Positions 56,703-63,105 of a DNA stretch of 64,000 nucleotides are shown here, piece after piece; within the stretch, counting starts at the first letter, position 1, and every line of letters starts with the position of its first letter. A model generated the notes under the pieces. It was given only the letters and a program-made list of their open reading frames with translations, searched no databases and had not been told where the DNA came from. The stretch covers positions 248,001-312,000 of the forward strand of contig JAIYAN010000021.1 in assembly GCA_027489035.1 (NCBI GenBank), given 5' to 3'. Origin of the DNA: Chitinophagaceae bacterium (GTDB lineage Bacteria; Bacteroidota; Bacteroidia; Chitinophagales; Chitinophagaceae). Position numbers and translations under genes: made by a program.

Positions 56703-56733
56703 ATTGCAACCCACAATCGGTGGATTACATTTG
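56703..56733 (+). promoter_or_regulatory. Predicted promoter of alaS
   Basis: ATTG at 56703-56706 and TACATTTG at 56726-56733 are separated by 19 bases, the usual spacing for Bacteroidota promoters. The predicted start leaves a leader of about 55 bases before the ATG at 56793. Confidence 0.55.
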
Positions 56734-56792
56734 TGTCTATTTACAAATATAACCCCAAATTGTATTTTACAACCCACATAATCAATTCAAAT

Positions 56793-59420
56793 ATGATGAC
56801 GGCATCTGAAATTAGGCAACATTTTCTGGATTTCTTTCAATCAAAAGAACATAAAATTGTTCCATCAGCACCTATTGTTGTTAAAAACGATCCTACACTT
56901 TTGTTCACCAATGCTGGGATGAATCAGTTCAAAGACTATTTTCTTGGAAATAAAACAGCACCTTATTTACGCATTGCAGATACGCAGAAATGTTTGCGTG
57001 TGAGTGGAAAACACAACGATTTAGAAGAAGTTGGTGTGGATACCTATCACCATACCATGTTTGAAATGTTGGGCAATTGGAGCTTTGGCGATTATTTTAA
57101 ACCAGAAGCAATTGCTTGGAGTTGGGAGCTATTAACTGAAGTATACAAATTAGATAAAGACAGATTATACGTTACGGTTTTTGAAGGAGATCCTAAAGAG
57201 AACATTCCTTCATCCTCAATTGCATTGGAAGAATGGAAAAAACTAGTACCTGAAGACAGAATCATTTACGGAAATAAAAAAGATAATTTTTGGGAAATGG
57301 GCGACACTGGCCCTTGTGGACCATGTACTGAAATTCATGTGGACTGCAGATCAGAAGAAGAAAGAATGAAAATACCTGGAAGAACATTGGTGAATAAAGA
57401 TCATCCTCAGGTAATTGAAATATGGAACAACGTATTCATACAATATAACCGCAAAAAAGATGGCACATTAGAACCTTTAAGTTCTAAGCATGTAGATACC
57501 GGAATGGGATTTGAAAGATTGGTTAGAGTAATTCAAAACAAACAAAGCAATTACGATACAGATGTATTTAGCGGCACAATAAAAGCAACTGAAAACATTA
57601 CAGGCAAGACATATCAAGCAAAAGATGATAAAGAAAGTATTGCATTTCGTGTACTTGCAGACCATATTAGAGCAATATCTTTTACAATAGCCGATGGGCA
57701 GCTTCCTTCGAATACGGGTGCTGGTTATGTAATTCGTAGAATTTTAAGAAGGGCTGTTCGTTATTATTATTCTTATTTGGATTACAAACAACCATTATTA
57801 TTTCAACTGCTTCCAATGATTGCAACTCAATTCGAAAATGTGTTTCCAGAATTGAAAAAGCAAGAAGAATTTGTTGGAAAAGTAATCAAAGAAGAAGAAG
57901 AAGCATTTTTAAGAACACTTGAAAAAGGATTGAAAAAAATGGACACCGTTATAATTCAATCTGCATCTACAAAAACCATTAGCGGTGCTGATGCTTTTGA
58001 ATTATTGGACACTTATGGATTTCCAATTGACTTAACGATTTTAATCGCTCAAGAAAACAACATGCAAGTTGATGAGCAAGGATTTGAAAGTGAAATGAAA
58101 ATTCAAAAAGACAGAAGTCGCGCTGCAACTGCATTAGATACTGAAGATTGGCAAATCATCAACGAAGGAAATAGCGAAGGATTTGTCGGATATGACACAC
58201 TTGAAACAACAACAAAAATTTTAAGAACAAGAAAAGTATCTGGAAAAGGAAAAGAACAGTTTCAAATTGTGTTGGCAAAAACGCCATTTTATGCCGAAAG
58301 TGGCGGACAAGTTGGTGATACCGGTTCTTTATCAGTGAGTGGACAAGTGATTGATATTGTTGACACTAAAAAAGAAAACGATTTAATCATTCATTTTACA
58401 GAACAAATTCCTGCTGAATTAAATGGTGAGGTTAATGCAAAAGTAGATGCTTCAAGAAGAAAGAACATTTCAATCCATCATAGCGTAACACACCTTATGC
58501 ACGCAGCTTTGCAACAAGTTCTTGGCAATCATGTGGCGCAAAAAGGGAGTTTGGTAAATGATCAACAATTGCGTTTTGATTTTTCGCATTTTGCAAAAGT
58601 TACCGATGAAGAATTACAAAAAGTGGAGAAAATTGTAAACGAGAAAATTAGAGAAAATGTAGCCGTTGTAATAAAATCAATGCATAAAGACGAAGCGATT
58701 GCTTTGGGCGCGATGGCATTGTTTGGTGAGAAATATGGCGATACTGTTCGTGTAGTAATTATGGACCCTGCATACTCTATTGAATTGTGTGGAGGAACGC
58801 ATGTTGGCTTTACAGGTGAAATTGGATATTTTAAAATCAAAACCGAAACAGCAGTTGCCGCAGGTGTTAGAAGAATAGAAGCTGTTTCTGGTTCAGCTGC
58901 TGAGCAAATTATTCAAGACCAATCCAATGAGTTGAGCTTGATAAAGGAAATTTTAAAAAATCCAAAAGACATACAAAAAGCAATTGAAGGTTTGCTTGCT
59001 GAAAACAGTACGCTTTCAAAAAGAATCGAATCACTTGAAGCGCGTCAGTTGGTTGGCATCAGAAATGAATTATTGCAAAAAGATGTTATCATAAACAATG
59101 TAAGTTTTATTGGTGAAATTGTAGAAGTGCCTAGCGCAGATGCTTTAAAAAAATTATGTGCAGATGTAAAACACCATTTACATGATCATTTTATTGTGCT
59201 TTGTAGCAACATCGGTGGGAAAGCTAATGTTGCAGTTGGTATCAGTGAAACTGTAATTGCAGCCAAAAATCTAGATGCAAATAAAATAATCAAAGAAATC
59301 GTAGGTCCAATGATTGTAGGCGGTGGAGGCGGACAAAAAACATTGGCAGCAGCTGGCGGACAAGACGTGTCTAAATTTGCTGATATAATAGAAACGCTAA
59401 AACAAAAACTAAACAGCTAA
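56793..59420 (+). CDS. alaS: Alanyl-tRNA synthetase
   Basis: An 875-residue AlaRS: class II catalytic domain (DPTLLFTNAGMNQFKDYFLG, then GDTGPCGPCTEI), tRNA-recognition helices, the editing domain with zinc/editing ligands HHSVTHLMHAAL and CGGTHV, and the C-terminal oligomerisation domain ending with IVGGGGGGQKTLAAAGGQD. ATG at 56793 or 56796 is the start; the 20 codons before it lie across the predicted promoter. Followed by a strong terminator. Confidence 0.97.
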   Translation: MMTASEIRQHFLDFFQSKEHKIVPSAPIVVKNDPTLLFTNAGMNQFKDYFLGNKTAPYLRIADTQKCLRVSGKHNDLEEVGVDTYHHTMFEMLGNWSFGDYFKPEAIAWSWELLTEVYKLDKDRLYVTVFEGDPKENIPSSSIALEEWKKLVPEDRIIYGNKKDNFWEMGDTGPCGPCTEIHVDCRSEEERMKIPGRTLVNKDHPQVIEIWNNVFIQYNRKKDGTLEPLSSKHVDTGMGFERLVRVIQNKQSNYDTDVFSGTIKATENITGKTYQAKDDKESIAFRVLADHIRAISFTIADGQLPSNTGAGYVIRRILRRAVRYYYSYLDYKQPLLFQLLPMIATQFENVFPELKKQEEFVGKVIKEEEEAFLRTLEKGLKKMDTVIIQSASTKTISGADAFELLDTYGFPIDLTILIAQENNMQVDEQGFESEMKIQKDRSRAATALDTEDWQIINEGNSEGFVGYDTLETTTKILRTRKVSGKGKEQFQIVLAKTPFYAESGGQVGDTGSLSVSGQVIDIVDTKKENDLIIHFTEQIPAELNGEVNAKVDASRRKNISIHHSVTHLMHAALQQVLGNHVAQKGSLVNDQQLRFDFSHFAKVTDEELQKVEKIVNEKIRENVAVVIKSMHKDEAIALGAMALFGEKYGDTVRVVIMDPAYSIELCGGTHVGFTGEIGYFKIKTETAVAAGVRRIEAVSGSAAEQIIQDQSNELSLIKEILKNPKDIQKAIEGLLAENSTLSKRIESLEARQLVGIRNELLQKDVIINNVSFIGEIVEVPSADALKKLCADVKHHLHDHFIVLCSNIGGKANVAVGISETVIAAKNLDANKIIKEIVGPMIVGGGGGQKTLAAAGGQDVSKFADIIETLKQKLNS

Positions 59421-59957: not shown

Positions 59958-60677
59958 TTAAACTTCTTCCAACTCCGGATATTTACACATTTCCAAAACC
60001 TCTGGTACATTACTATTGTCAACCCTGGAAGTTATAAGCTTACTGATGGTATGATATGCCATTTCTGAATCAGAAAAAGGTTTAAAAAACTGTTGGATAT
60101 CCTTAGGCATAAGATTATTATCTAGCCAATGGTCGTAAGTATTCGAAGATATTATTACAGGCATTCGTTTCTTTGAATTATGAATCTTTTCCATCATTGG
60201 ATTTGCATCCGTTGTAAGTATTGAGAAGGTTTGAATCAACTCGCCGGTAAATCGATCTGTCCAGTTTGCATATATCCCACCAAAACAAAACATTTCTTTG
60301 TTTTTCATGAAAATAAAATGCGGATATTTTTTCTTGTCAAATTCTCGCCATTCAAAAAAACCATCAGCAGGAATCAAGCATCTATTGTATTTTATGCCCG
60401 ACCTGAATGAAGGTTTCTCAAATGCTGTTTCGGAGCGTGCATTTAATGTTTGTGCTTTTAATTTATCTGCATCTACTTTTGATTTCACCCAAGAAGGAAT
60501 TAAACCCCAATTGAACAATTGCACATATTTCGGATCAGCTTGTGTAATCACGGGCATTTGCAAAAAACTAAACCCTGAAGCATGATAAACAGGTTGCCAT
60601 TCTTGGCCTTCCCAATGCACACGAAGATTATCTTCGATTGTAGCCATTTTTTGTGTAATAGAATAATGAAAGCACAT
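59958..60677 (-). CDS. SOS response-associated peptidase (YedK/HMCES family)
   Basis: A 239-residue SRAP domain protein. The catalytic Cys2 is exposed after Met removal (MCFHYSITQ), with further conserved NARSETAFEKPSFR, CLIPADGFFEW and KKRMPVII motifs. It forms a thiazolidine crosslink to abasic sites in single-stranded DNA, shielding them during replication. A TACTTTTG promoter element ends four bases before the ATG, predicting a leaderless mRNA. It is flanked on both sides by dispersed repeats. Confidence 0.92.
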   Translation of the reverse strand: MCFHYSITQKMATIEDNLRVHWEGQEWQPVYHASGFSFLQMPVITQADPKYVQLFNWGLIPSWVKSKVDADKLKAQTLNARSETAFEKPSFRSGIKYNRCLIPADGFFEWREFDKKKYPHFIFMKNKEMFCFGGIYANWTDRFTGELIQTFSILTTDANPMMEKIHNSKKRMPVIISSNTYDHWLDNNLMPKDIQQFFKPFSDSEMAYHTISKLITSRVDNSNVPEVLEMCKYPELEEV

Positions 60678-60727: not shown

Positions 60728-60905
60728 AAAAGATGTTTTTGAGGTTTTTGAAGTTTTAGATGTTTATGAAGTTGGGTTTAAAGATTTTCAACCCTTACAA
60801 GAGGTTTTTGAGGTTTTTGAGGTTTGTTCCAACACCAAACACCAAACGACAAACTGTAAACTCCAAACACCAAACGCCAAACTATAAACAACAAACCACA
60901 AACAT
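60728..60905. repeat. Dispersed repeat block with GTTTTTGAG and CCAAAC units
   Basis: The left half contains GTTTTTGAG units (60734-60750 and 60794-60822) and an AAGATTTTCAACCCTTAC half-site at 60781-60798, the same components as the element upstream of atpB. The right half has CACCAAACACCAAACG-type units, the inverse of the GTTTGG units at 59820. No gene is supported in this spacer. Confidence 0.75.
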
Positions 60906-60943: not shown

Positions 60944-62389
60944 ATGGAAAATATCATATCGGCTATAAAATCACTTTGGCTACAATTTAATTCTGAAGCA
61001 ATATCTCGTATCGAAAATATCCCACAAAGTGGAAGCGATAGAAGCTATTTTAGAATATACTGCGAAAGCGATAAAACATATATTGCTACATGTAGCAACA
61101 ATACCAAAGAAAACGATACCTTCATTTATTTTAGCAAACATTTCAAAAATACTGGTGCGCCTGTACCAGAGATATTAATCATAAACGAAGATAAAACCAT
61201 TTACATTCAAGAAGATTTTGGTGATTTAAATTTGCTGAATGTTTTAGAAGAAAAAGGATATACACAAGAAGTATATAATCTTTTTAAAAAATCGCTGAAA
61301 GCGCTGTCAAATCTGCAAATTAATGGAGATAAAAATCTAGATTACAGCAAATGCATTACCAGCAAAGTGTTTGGGCAACAAGCCATTTTTAGTGATCTTT
61401 TGTATTTTAAATACTATTTCCTCGACACCTTAAAAATTCCATACGATAAAGAGAAATTAATTGACGATTTTGAAGCCATCAGCAATTATTTGGCACATGC
61501 TGATTATTCGCATTTCATGTTTCGCGATTTTCAAAGCAGAAACATTATGGTAAAAAATAGCGAAGTTTATTTCATCGATTTCCAAGGTGGAATGAAGGGC
61601 GCGCTACAATATGATGTAGCTTCTTTGTTGTGGCAAGCAAAAGCCAATTTGAGTGATGAATGGAAAGATAGCTTGTTGCAATATTATATGGATTGTGTAG
61701 ATGAACAATTTGAAACTTCATTGGATAGAACATCTTTTGTAAATCAATACAATGGTTATGTGTTGATACGACTGTTGCAGGTATTGGGCGCTTATGGGTT
61801 TAGGGGATTGTTTGAACGCAAAGCCCATTTTTTAACCAGTATTCCATTTGCCTTACAAAATTTAAAACACTTTTTACAGCACAAAAAAATAGGCATTCAT
61901 TTTCCAGAGTTTGAGCAATTACTCGAAAAAATAGTAAGTGATAAAATCATTCAACAATTTGAAAATATCAAAGCAAATAAGGAAACTCCTTTGACTGTAA
62001 AAGTTCAAAGCTTTTCTTATTTAAAAAATGGATATCCAAAAGATGAAACTAAAAATGGTGGTGGATATGTATTCGATTGCAGAGGCATTTTAAATCCAGG
62101 TAGAATAGATGAATATAAAAAGCAATCAGGACAAGATAAGCCAGTAAAAGATTATTTGGAACAACAAACGTTGATGCCAAAATTTTTAAATAGCATTTAC
62201 GATATAATAGACATAACCGTTGAAGACTATATCAAACGCGGTTTTGAAAGTTTAGAAATAAATTTTGGATGCACGGGTGGACAACACAGAAGCGTATACG
62301 CTGCAGAAGCTGTGGTAAGACATTTGAAAAATAAATTTGGCGTAAAGACAACACTACAACATTTGAATAACGAAAACTGGGTAAAATGA
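60944..62389 (+). CDS. AmgK-like sugar kinase fused to a RapZ C-terminal domain
   Basis: A 481-residue two-domain protein. Residues 1-335 are an aminoglycoside-phosphotransferase-fold kinase with catalytic D195 and N200 in FRDFQSRNIMV and metal Asp D212 in FIDFQGG, resembling AmgK, the anomeric MurNAc/GlcNAc kinase. Residues about 349-475 match the C-terminal domain of RapZ, with VFDCRGILNPGR, SGQDKPVKDYL and the signature CTGGQHRS at 443-450; in E. coli this domain binds glucosamine-6-phosphate. The RapZ N-terminal P-loop domain is absent. The gene overlaps the MurU-like gene by four bases, so the pair probably runs a sensor-linked cell-wall sugar salvage route; the regulatory part is inference. 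Confidence 0.85.
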   Translation: MENIISAIKSLWLQFNSEAISRIENIPQSGSDRSYFRIYCESDKTYIATCSNNTKENDTFIYFSKHFKNTGAPVPEILIINEDKTIYIQEDFGDLNLLNVLEEKGYTQEVYNLFKKSLKALSNLQINGDKNLDYSKCITSKVFGQQAIFSDLLYFKYYFLDTLKIPYDKEKLIDDFEAISNYLAHADYSHFMFRDFQSRNIMVKNSEVYFIDFQGGMKGALQYDVASLLWQAKANLSDEWKDSLLQYYMDCVDEQFETSLDRTSFVNQYNGYVLIRLLQVLGAYGFRGLFERKAHFLTSIPFALQNLKHFLQHKKIGIHFPEFEQLLEKIVSDKIIQQFENIKANKETPLTVKVQSFSYLKNGYPKDETKNGGGYVFDCRGILNPGRIDEYKKQSGQDKPVKDYLEQQTLMPKFLNSIYDIIDITVEDYIKRGFESLEINFGCTGGQHRSVYAAEAVVRHLKNKFGVKTTLQHLNNENWVK

Positions 62390-63105
62390 AAGCAATGATT
62401 TTCGCTGCCGGATTAGGCACTAGATTCAAACCTTGGACAGATTCAAATCCTAAAGCGCTTGCTATCATAAATGGAAAATCTTTGTTGCAAAGGAATATAG
62501 AATACCTCCAAAAATATGGCATTACAGATGTGGTGGTTAATGTTCATCATTTTGCAGATAAAATCATAGATACCATATTAGCAAACAATGGCTGGGGAAG
62601 CAATATAACCATCAGCGATGAACGAAATGAAGTTTTGGAAACTGGTGGAGGACTTTTAAAAGCCCAGTCATTTCTTCAAAATGAAGATCCCTTCATTACA
62701 TTAAATGCAGATATTTTAACCGACTTTCCAATAGATGAACTTGTGCATTTTCATCAACAAAAAGAGGCGTTGATTTCTTTTGGTGTTTCAAACAGAAAAA
62801 CAACAAGAAATTTTTTATTTGATTCAAACAATCAACTTTGTGGCTGGGAAAACAATGCTACAGGTGAACAAATCATATCTATTCAAAATAGAGTATTGCA
62901 TCCATTAGCATATAGTTGTGTAGCGATTTTCGAACCCACTGTTTTTGAGAAAATACCACAACGAGGAAAATTTTCATTAACAGAAACTTATTTAAGTATA
63001 GCCGAAAAAAATCTTATTGTAGGATTTGAACATAACAAAAACCGATGGATTGATGTAGGAAAACCGGAAAGTGTGGAGGTAGCCGAAGAAATGTTTGGAG
63101 AGTAA
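62386..63105 (+). CDS. MurU-like sugar-1-phosphate nucleotidyltransferase
   Basis: A 239-residue nucleotidyltransferase with the N-terminal signature FAAGLGTRFKPWTDSNPKAL, NADIL at the metal-binding Asp, and the final WIDVGKPES. Size and sequence best fit MurU, which makes UDP-MurNAc from MurNAc-1-phosphate, bypassing de novo UDP-MurNAc synthesis and MurA. The ATGA overlap with the kinase gene implies translational coupling and a shared pathway. GlcNAc-1-phosphate or mannose-1-phosphate as substrate cannot be excluded. Confidence 0.83.
   Translation: MKAMIFAAGLGTRFKPWTDSNPKALAIINGKSLLQRNIEYLQKYGITDVVVNVHHFADKIIDTILANNGWGSNITISDERNEVLETGGGLLKAQSFLQNEDPFITLNADILTDFPIDELVHFHQQKEALISFGVSNRKTTRNFLFDSNNQLCGWENNATGEQIISIQNRVLHPLAYSCVAIFEPTVFEKIPQRGKFSLTETYLSIAEKNLIVGFEHNKNRWIDVGKPESVEVAEEMFGE

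Follow-up and report, generated by a model that had tools for sequence, protein, structure and literature searches.

Genome comparison suggests that a RapZ C-terminal domain fused to an AmgK-like kinase may be a missing phosphatase of cell-wall recycling

An AmgK-like kinase fused to a RapZ C-terminal domain

We examined a 64,000-nucleotide stretch from a Chitinophagaceae bacterium (assembly GCA_027489035.1, contig JAIYAN010000021.1, positions 248,001 to 312,000; hereafter the window). It carries an open reading frame (ORF) that joins an AmgK-like sugar kinase to the C-terminal domain of RapZ (RapZ_C), followed by an ORF for a MurU-like nucleotidyltransferase (Table 1). The kinase-MurU half is ordinary for the phylum, and the RapZ_C half is the point of interest: genome comparison suggests a possible role as the phosphatase that cell-wall recycling is missing, rather than one in RNA regulation or in sensing alone. 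A search of open-licence papers turned up no report of the fusion or of its acting as a phosphatase.

An earlier note on this DNA had described a phosphotransferase-fold kinase with D195, N200 and D212, and these residues are indeed in place. Pfam recognised APH (PF01636) at residues 25–248 with 41.1 bits (cut-off 23.2), the kinase has the APH fold, and the three residues are unchanged in 52 of 52 aligned relatives. The structure prediction that the note had proposed as a check gave a confident AlphaFold2 model of the entire fusion (mean pLDDT 91.4, pTM 0.80). AmgK (NCBIfam NF045759) was the best-scoring kinase equivalog, but at 53.3 bits the ORF missed its cut-off of 550. APH fold, catalytic residues and MurU coupling would all fit an AmgK function. 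The downstream ORF shares four bases, ATGA, with the fusion, as had been claimed. It reached 138.6 bits with the MurU profile NF045761, below the cut-off of 250 that none of 198 genomes of the window's phylum (sample 1) passed. As both proteins score below the equivalog cut-offs, we word them as 'AmgK-like' and 'MurU-like'. Still, the MurU-like identity read by the earlier note is borne out by the two best solved relatives: 8hhd (6.4e-21) is named N-acetylmuramate alpha-1-phosphate uridylyltransferase, and 4y7t (1.5e-22), deposited as 'Nucleotidyl transferase', we take to be MurU.

How consistently the fusion sits next to murU, a search also proposed in that note, was examined in 80 named loci chosen as fusion relatives. 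A MurU-like ORF lies directly downstream in 43 of the 77 with more than 300 bases of downstream sequence, so that adjacency is common without being universal. The MurU cluster (46/80 loci) is the sole neighbour cluster in more than 10 of the 80, antisense ORFs over the fusion (30 loci) aside.

The second half of the fusion matched PF22740, the RapZ C-terminal domain, at residues 350–474 with 108.4 bits (cut-off 27), and it contains the CTGGQHRS signature noticed earlier. In the secondary structure of the model this C-X5-R-S loop sits between a strand (436–443) and a helix (449–465). The C443 motif served as the pattern in a contig scan, and Cys conservation in alignments from that scan is partly built in. 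Because such alignments pre-select Cys, we took conservation from domains found by hidden Markov model (HMM), located by a different motif. They comprise the 24 domains of sample 1 and, from 230 genomes of the class of genome G019 (sample 2), the 23 top-scoring domains not already in that set; both samples together hold 86 distinct RapZ_C genomes, of which these are 47. Cys, Arg and Ser of the loop were kept in 47 of 47.

The pocket around this loop is changed. In Escherichia coli RapZ it binds sulfate or malonate via H190, H252, R253 and the backbone of T248 and G249 (PMC5737377; this and the other papers are cited from partial texts). The fusion keeps T248, G249, H252, R253 and the nearby C247, and H190 alone is altered: its position holds Gly in 24/24 domains of a first alignment and in 45/47 HMM-found domains (Val in the other two), and His in seven and Tyr in one of eight full-length RapZ homologues. 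Since His190 is replaced by Gly, the ligand may well be a sugar phosphate other than glucosamine-6-phosphate (GlcN6P). Together with a GGG insertion before FD-C-R, this replacement is expected from the sequence to alter what the pocket accepts; N-acetylmuramic acid 6-phosphate (MurNAc-6P), a candidate ligand, is bulkier than GlcN6P. On a tree of 61 rows, 52 fused and separate RapZ_C domains formed one clade apart from full-length RapZ (support 100/99), within a tree on which the fused state changed four times. Thus, although RapZ_C has a common fold with the C-terminal domain of RapZ/YvcJ, it differs by its pocket and by its separate clade, and the fusion lacks the N-terminal P-loop domain and the basic RNA-binding tail.

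The absence of the RapZ N-terminal domain had been noted earlier: Pfam gave only APH and PF22740 above cut-off, and the RapZ profile NF003828 covered residues 333–470 only. By inspection, the chain stops at HLNNENWVK soon after the last strand, with no counterpart of the basic tail of E. coli RapZ, for which PMC7525490 gives a consensus. The suggestion that perhaps no RNA is involved is probably right, given an ORF with neither N-domain nor basic tail.

Table 1. Features of the fusion locus in the window
Feature	Positions	Strand	Evidence or remark
Fusion ORF, AmgK-like kinase + RapZ_C, 481 aa	60944..62389	+	ATG start, Pfam, AlphaFold2 model
APH/choline-kinase-fold sugar kinase part, about aa 1-341	60944..61966	+	
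Kinase catalytic segment D195, N200, D212	61526..61579	+	identical in 52/52
RapZ_C domain, aa 346-481	61979..62386	+	Pfam PF22740, fold
Remodelled pocket segment aa 371-386: GGG insertion, FDCR, NPG	62054..62101	+	Gly386 replaces E. coli His190
Phosphate loop C443-T-G-G-Q-H-R449-S450 = C-X5-R-S	62270..62293	+	aa 443-450
MurU-like nucleotidyltransferase, 239 aa	62386..63105	+	NF045761 138.6 bits; PDB relatives; shares ATGA with fusion

Distribution of RapZ_C, AnmK and MurQ

At least 8000 candidates were homologous to the fusion, and all of the 120 listed carried both Pfam domains; the absence from all close relatives that the earlier note would have taken as a sign of misassembly is thus not what we found. 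Named records include Ferruginibacter, Cnuella takakiae, Labilibaculum filiforme, Carboxylicivirga and Mariniphaga and, by title, also Calditrichia, Delongbacteria, Melioribacter and Neomarinimicrobiota. Phylum names drawn from titles need caution because some titles of metagenome-assembled genomes (MAGs) look wrong: two titled 'Williamsia' and 'Comamonas' (L031 and L051) are at odds with their Chitinophagaceae-like fusions, 60–63% identical to that of the window, and L005 and an 'Ignavibacteria' MAG (L097) share one and the same RapZ_C stretch, so that one bin may be mislabelled.

RapZ_C was found in 24 of the 198 genomes of sample 1, fused in 20 (frames of 478–524 residues) and separate in four (134–149 residues); the order kinase, RapZ_C ORF, murU occurs in G012, G095 and G031. 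In sample 2, 72 of 230 genomes carry it (26 fused, 46 as its own ORF), and the kinase occurs in 74, in 70 of these together with RapZ_C; the 74 include G333 despite a match of 21.8 bits only. Among the 46 separate domains, 11 adjoin the kinase, 33 have it elsewhere and two (G327, G343) come without a kinase match. The kinase is on another contig in 31 of the 33 unlinked cases, many of these assemblies being fragmented; it lies 1.18 Mb away in the one-contig G285 and 0.55 Mb away in G204. At the other extreme, locus L137 has the order kinase, RapZ_C, murU, in which kinase and RapZ_C overlap by one base and RapZ_C and murU by four; its standalone RapZ_C ORF (L137 6182–6577) encodes a small protein of 131 residues. 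RapZ_C is therefore a separable unit that follows the kinase, whether fused, adjoining or unlinked.

AnmK produces MurNAc-6P, which the etherase MurQ converts to GlcNAc-6P; an anabolic route without MurQ requires a MurNAc-6P phosphatase, for which Pseudomonas uses MupP (PMC5371407, PMC5371409). MupP itself was discovered through its co-occurrence with AmgK and its absence where MurQ is present (PMC5371407). Where AnmK is present and MurQ is not, MurNAc-6P has to be consumed in some other way; an E. coli K-12 murQ deletion accumulates it (PMC5371407). In sample 1 we counted 140 genomes as having MurQ, 134 of them above the curated cut-off and six at 252–300 bits; no other genome exceeded 46 bits. 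In sample 2 an E-value of 1e-30 or less was required, which gave 157 genomes, one of them under the curated cut-off. All rows were kept, counts and Fisher tests are genome counts uncorrected for descent, and the samples overlap (sample 1 already holds 10 of the 72 genomes with RapZ_C in sample 2).

AnmK occurs in 136 of the 198 genomes of sample 1, each of which carries MurQ or RapZ_C. RapZ_C is present in all eight with AnmK and no MurQ (families f1, f4, f14, f32 and f39), the window's own genome included. The kinase occurs without RapZ_C in 43 genomes (42 of family f16, and G009), where AnmK and MurQ are both missing. Similarly, in sample 2, RapZ_C accompanies AnmK in 49 of 57 genomes without MurQ versus 6 of 125 with it (Fisher 4.5e-29). 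All 230 genomes split into 149 with MurQ only, 64 with RapZ_C only, eight with both (five of f33, two of f43, one of f50) and nine with neither. Family f15 shows the same exclusion (11 RapZ_C only, 16 MurQ only, none both, one neither; Fisher 5.6e-7), and even genus g56 is divided in this way (G321 and G355 versus G047, G082 and G176). Finally, 53 of the 56 genomes of sample 2 with AnmK and the kinase also carry RapZ_C. It is absent from G259 and G301, which are 94 and 93% complete, and from G333, with its weak kinase match. Gene and domain structure, fold, motif conservation and distribution are shown by this analysis.

A putative MurNAc-6P phosphatase and competing explanations

We propose, with a probability of roughly 45%, that RapZ_C is a phosphatase that dephosphorylates MurNAc-6P ahead of the kinase step and so feeds AmgK and MurU. 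We favour this because of its distribution, its behaviour as a unit, the chemistry of its C-X5-R-S loop, and a clade of its own with a changed pocket. The locus would then be the organism's anabolic MurNAc-recycling route, in which we infer catalysis, substrate and order of steps. AnmK, encoded elsewhere in the genome, would form MurNAc-6P; RapZ_C would strip the 6-phosphate, with Cys443 as nucleophile and the C-X5-R-S loop gripping the phosphate; the AmgK-like kinase would phosphorylate C1 using ATP, and MurU would produce UDP-MurNAc. RapZ_C would do the job of the HAD phosphatase MupP of Pseudomonas, and the fusion would act as a phosphatase-kinase, moving the phosphate of the sugar from C6 to C1 and spending ATP to do so. 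A little more tentatively still, RapZ_C of Bacteroidota and their relatives in general could be a Cys-dependent MurNAc-6P phosphatase and an unrecognised counterpart of MupP, making the fusion bifunctional.

The C-X5-R loop is the motif of Cys-based phosphatases, the protein tyrosine phosphatases (PTP) and their low-molecular-weight relatives (LMW-PTP). RapZ_C has the same C-X5-R-S spacing at a strand-loop-helix. In E. coli, RapZ activity was lost in both C247A and C247S, and the serine result was unexpected to the authors (PMC9841335). Phosphatase activity is attributed, second-hand, to Bacillus subtilis YvcJ in PMC7525490, and to Xanthomonas HpaP by a title in the reference list of PMC7073468.

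The closest known system is the AnmK-MupP-AmgK-MurU route of Pseudomonas. Like it, the window's genome has AnmK and no MurQ, with an AmgK-like kinase followed by a MurU-like enzyme, and its MurQ-complementary distribution is also seen in RapZ_C genomes. In contrast, RapZ_C stands where MupP is expected, and kinase and MurU are far under the equivalog cut-offs. MupP belongs to the HAD family whereas the domain of the window is RapZ_C by Pfam and by fold, and hence would be a functional analogue at most. Another Bacteroidota AmgK-MurU pair, that of Tannerella forsythia, served in E. coli as a positive control for MurNAc-probe labelling (PMC13041923), and since this pair works there, AmgK/MurU activity is demonstrated for Bacteroidota enzymes.

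Several observations weigh against a phosphatase. AnmK is missing in 17 of 72 (sample 2) and 7 of 24 (sample 1) RapZ_C genomes, uniformly so in family f15 (11/11), and MurQ is present too in 10 of 24 (sample 1) and 8 of 72 (sample 2). Six genomes of sample 2 have AnmK and lack MurQ, kinase and RapZ_C altogether. No PTP-family or phosphatase fold appeared among the structure matches listed, the fold being RapZ/PFK-like. Moreover, the kinase has the same profile as RapZ_C, so that MurQ absence supports the pair and not RapZ_C alone. Support specific to RapZ_C comes from the kinase without it, which is confined to genomes lacking AnmK, save G259 and G301 (and G333 if counted).

The earlier note stands as regards an AmgK-like kinase, a RapZ_C domain, MurU coupling and a probable lack of RNA role; its own proposal is now the main rival to the phosphatase. 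RapZ_C would bind an amino-sugar phosphate (GlcN6P or MurNAc-6P) and adjust the kinase allosterically without catalysis. We consider this sensor role somewhat less likely than the phosphatase. The His190 of the RapZ pocket is replaced by Gly, and the invariant Cys and Arg exceed the needs of a binding pocket. In addition, 46 of 72 genomes encode RapZ_C apart from the kinase gene, often unlinked to it, and regulation would there have to act in trans; that the domain still follows the kinase in such genomes suits an enzyme in its own right no less than an allosteric add-on.

It is less probable again that RapZ_C is a non-catalytic partner, which holds or channels MurNAc-6P, MurNAc or a kinase-MurU complex while another phosphatase (HAD or other) acts. 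MupP is indeed a HAD enzyme (PMC5371407), and a SixA-type phosphatase ORF, named by eye, precedes the fusion in 10 of the 80 named loci. That adjacency is however limited to one locus group, the invariant Cys would be left unexplained, and no HAD ORF was recognised by eye in the 28 largest neighbour clusters (no HMM scan was made, and the HAD enzymes of the genomes were not surveyed). Some fusions and standalone ORFs are called 'RNase adapter RapZ' in databases, but a genuine RNase adaptor with a small RNA as its target is very improbable: RapZ N-domain and, by inspection, basic tail are missing, NF003828 scored 98.4 against 244 required, and the RNA-binding region of RapZ is described in PMC7073468 as confined to Enterobacteriaceae. 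Misassembly or chance fusion in a single genome can be discarded, the same architecture recurring in the 120 homologues listed, in 20 of the 24 RapZ_C genomes of sample 1 and in 80 of 80 named loci, the latter picked as fusion relatives.

Gene neighbourhood, annotation and implications

In RapZ_C genomes without AnmK, a BadF/MurK kinase was considered as an alternative source of MurNAc-6P. It was present in 7/7, versus 1/8 tested kinase genomes without RapZ_C (of 43), and was given almost no weight because 53/55 genomes tested in the class of sample 2 have it as well. In family f44, AnmK lies 8–16 kb from the standalone RapZ_C on the same contig in six of nine genomes with both (G204, G210, G222, G265, G276, G279), and 11 kb from the fusion in G005; such distances are too great to speak of an operon, and in f44 the proximity may reflect shared descent only. 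The kinases of the 42 f16 genomes are AmgK-like (22–28% identity), with a MurU-like gene adjoining in the cases compared. From sequence, this set without RapZ_C, AnmK and MurQ appears to be a third, reduced form of MurNAc salvage.

The SixA-like phosphatase ORF is immediately upstream of the fusion in L060, L062, L063, L065, L067, L068, L070, L073, L090 and L092. This group has no adjacent murU, and an LpxH-like ORF precedes in 9 of the 10 (families named by eye). Next to the unlinked standalone RapZ_C we observed a major facilitator superfamily (MFS) transporter gene in seven of nine loci examined (L130–L133, L135, L136 and L142; families f39 and f44), which could import muropeptides or amino sugars. 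Pfam gave MFS_1 in the four of the seven scanned, NCBIfam matched none of three scanned and a solved relative was found for none of two scanned; with only MFS_1 to go by, the transporter is not callable as AmpG. In the window itself, an alanyl-tRNA synthetase-like ORF (56733–59420, +) and an SRAP/HMCES-type peptidase-like ORF (59958–60677, −), both named by eye, lie upstream and outside the pathway. Short tandem repeats, A/C-rich (60831–60904) and T/G-rich (60735–60825), are found just upstream of the fusion, including a 28-base unit, AACACCAAACACCAAACGACAAACTATA, in 2.6 copies.

A Bacteroides finegoldii plasmid record (NZ_OY725912.1, L151 2990–4420) holds a fusion annotated 'RNase adapter RapZ' that ends nine bases before a nucleotidyltransferase gene. 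Some standalone RapZ_C ORFs are likewise databased under this name or as 'RNase adaptor protein for sRNA GlmZ degradation'. Such names on proteins without the RapZ N-domain are probably a widespread misannotation. A very divergent standalone RapZ_C of 128 residues with a CSGGRHR loop lies near a transfer gene on Streptomyces plasmid NZ_CP134607.1 (L152 2995–3381), and similar matches occur on further Streptomyces plasmids. On a Desulfosarcina ovata plasmid (L153 2567–3171), two short adjoining coding sequences named RNase adapter RapZ, beside a PTS IIA gene, are probably a broken rapZ.

Should RapZ_C prove to be a MurNAc-6P phosphatase, it would supply a step that peptidoglycan recycling lacks so far in a large bacterial group, and the name 'RNase adapter RapZ' would be corrected on proteins without the RapZ N-domain. 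The puzzling essential Cys of E. coli RapZ would gain a testable origin, in a metabolic enzyme domain later turned into an RNA-binding regulator. If RapZ_C is instead a sensor, the locus would show in compact form how the salvage of wall sugars is subject to feedback.
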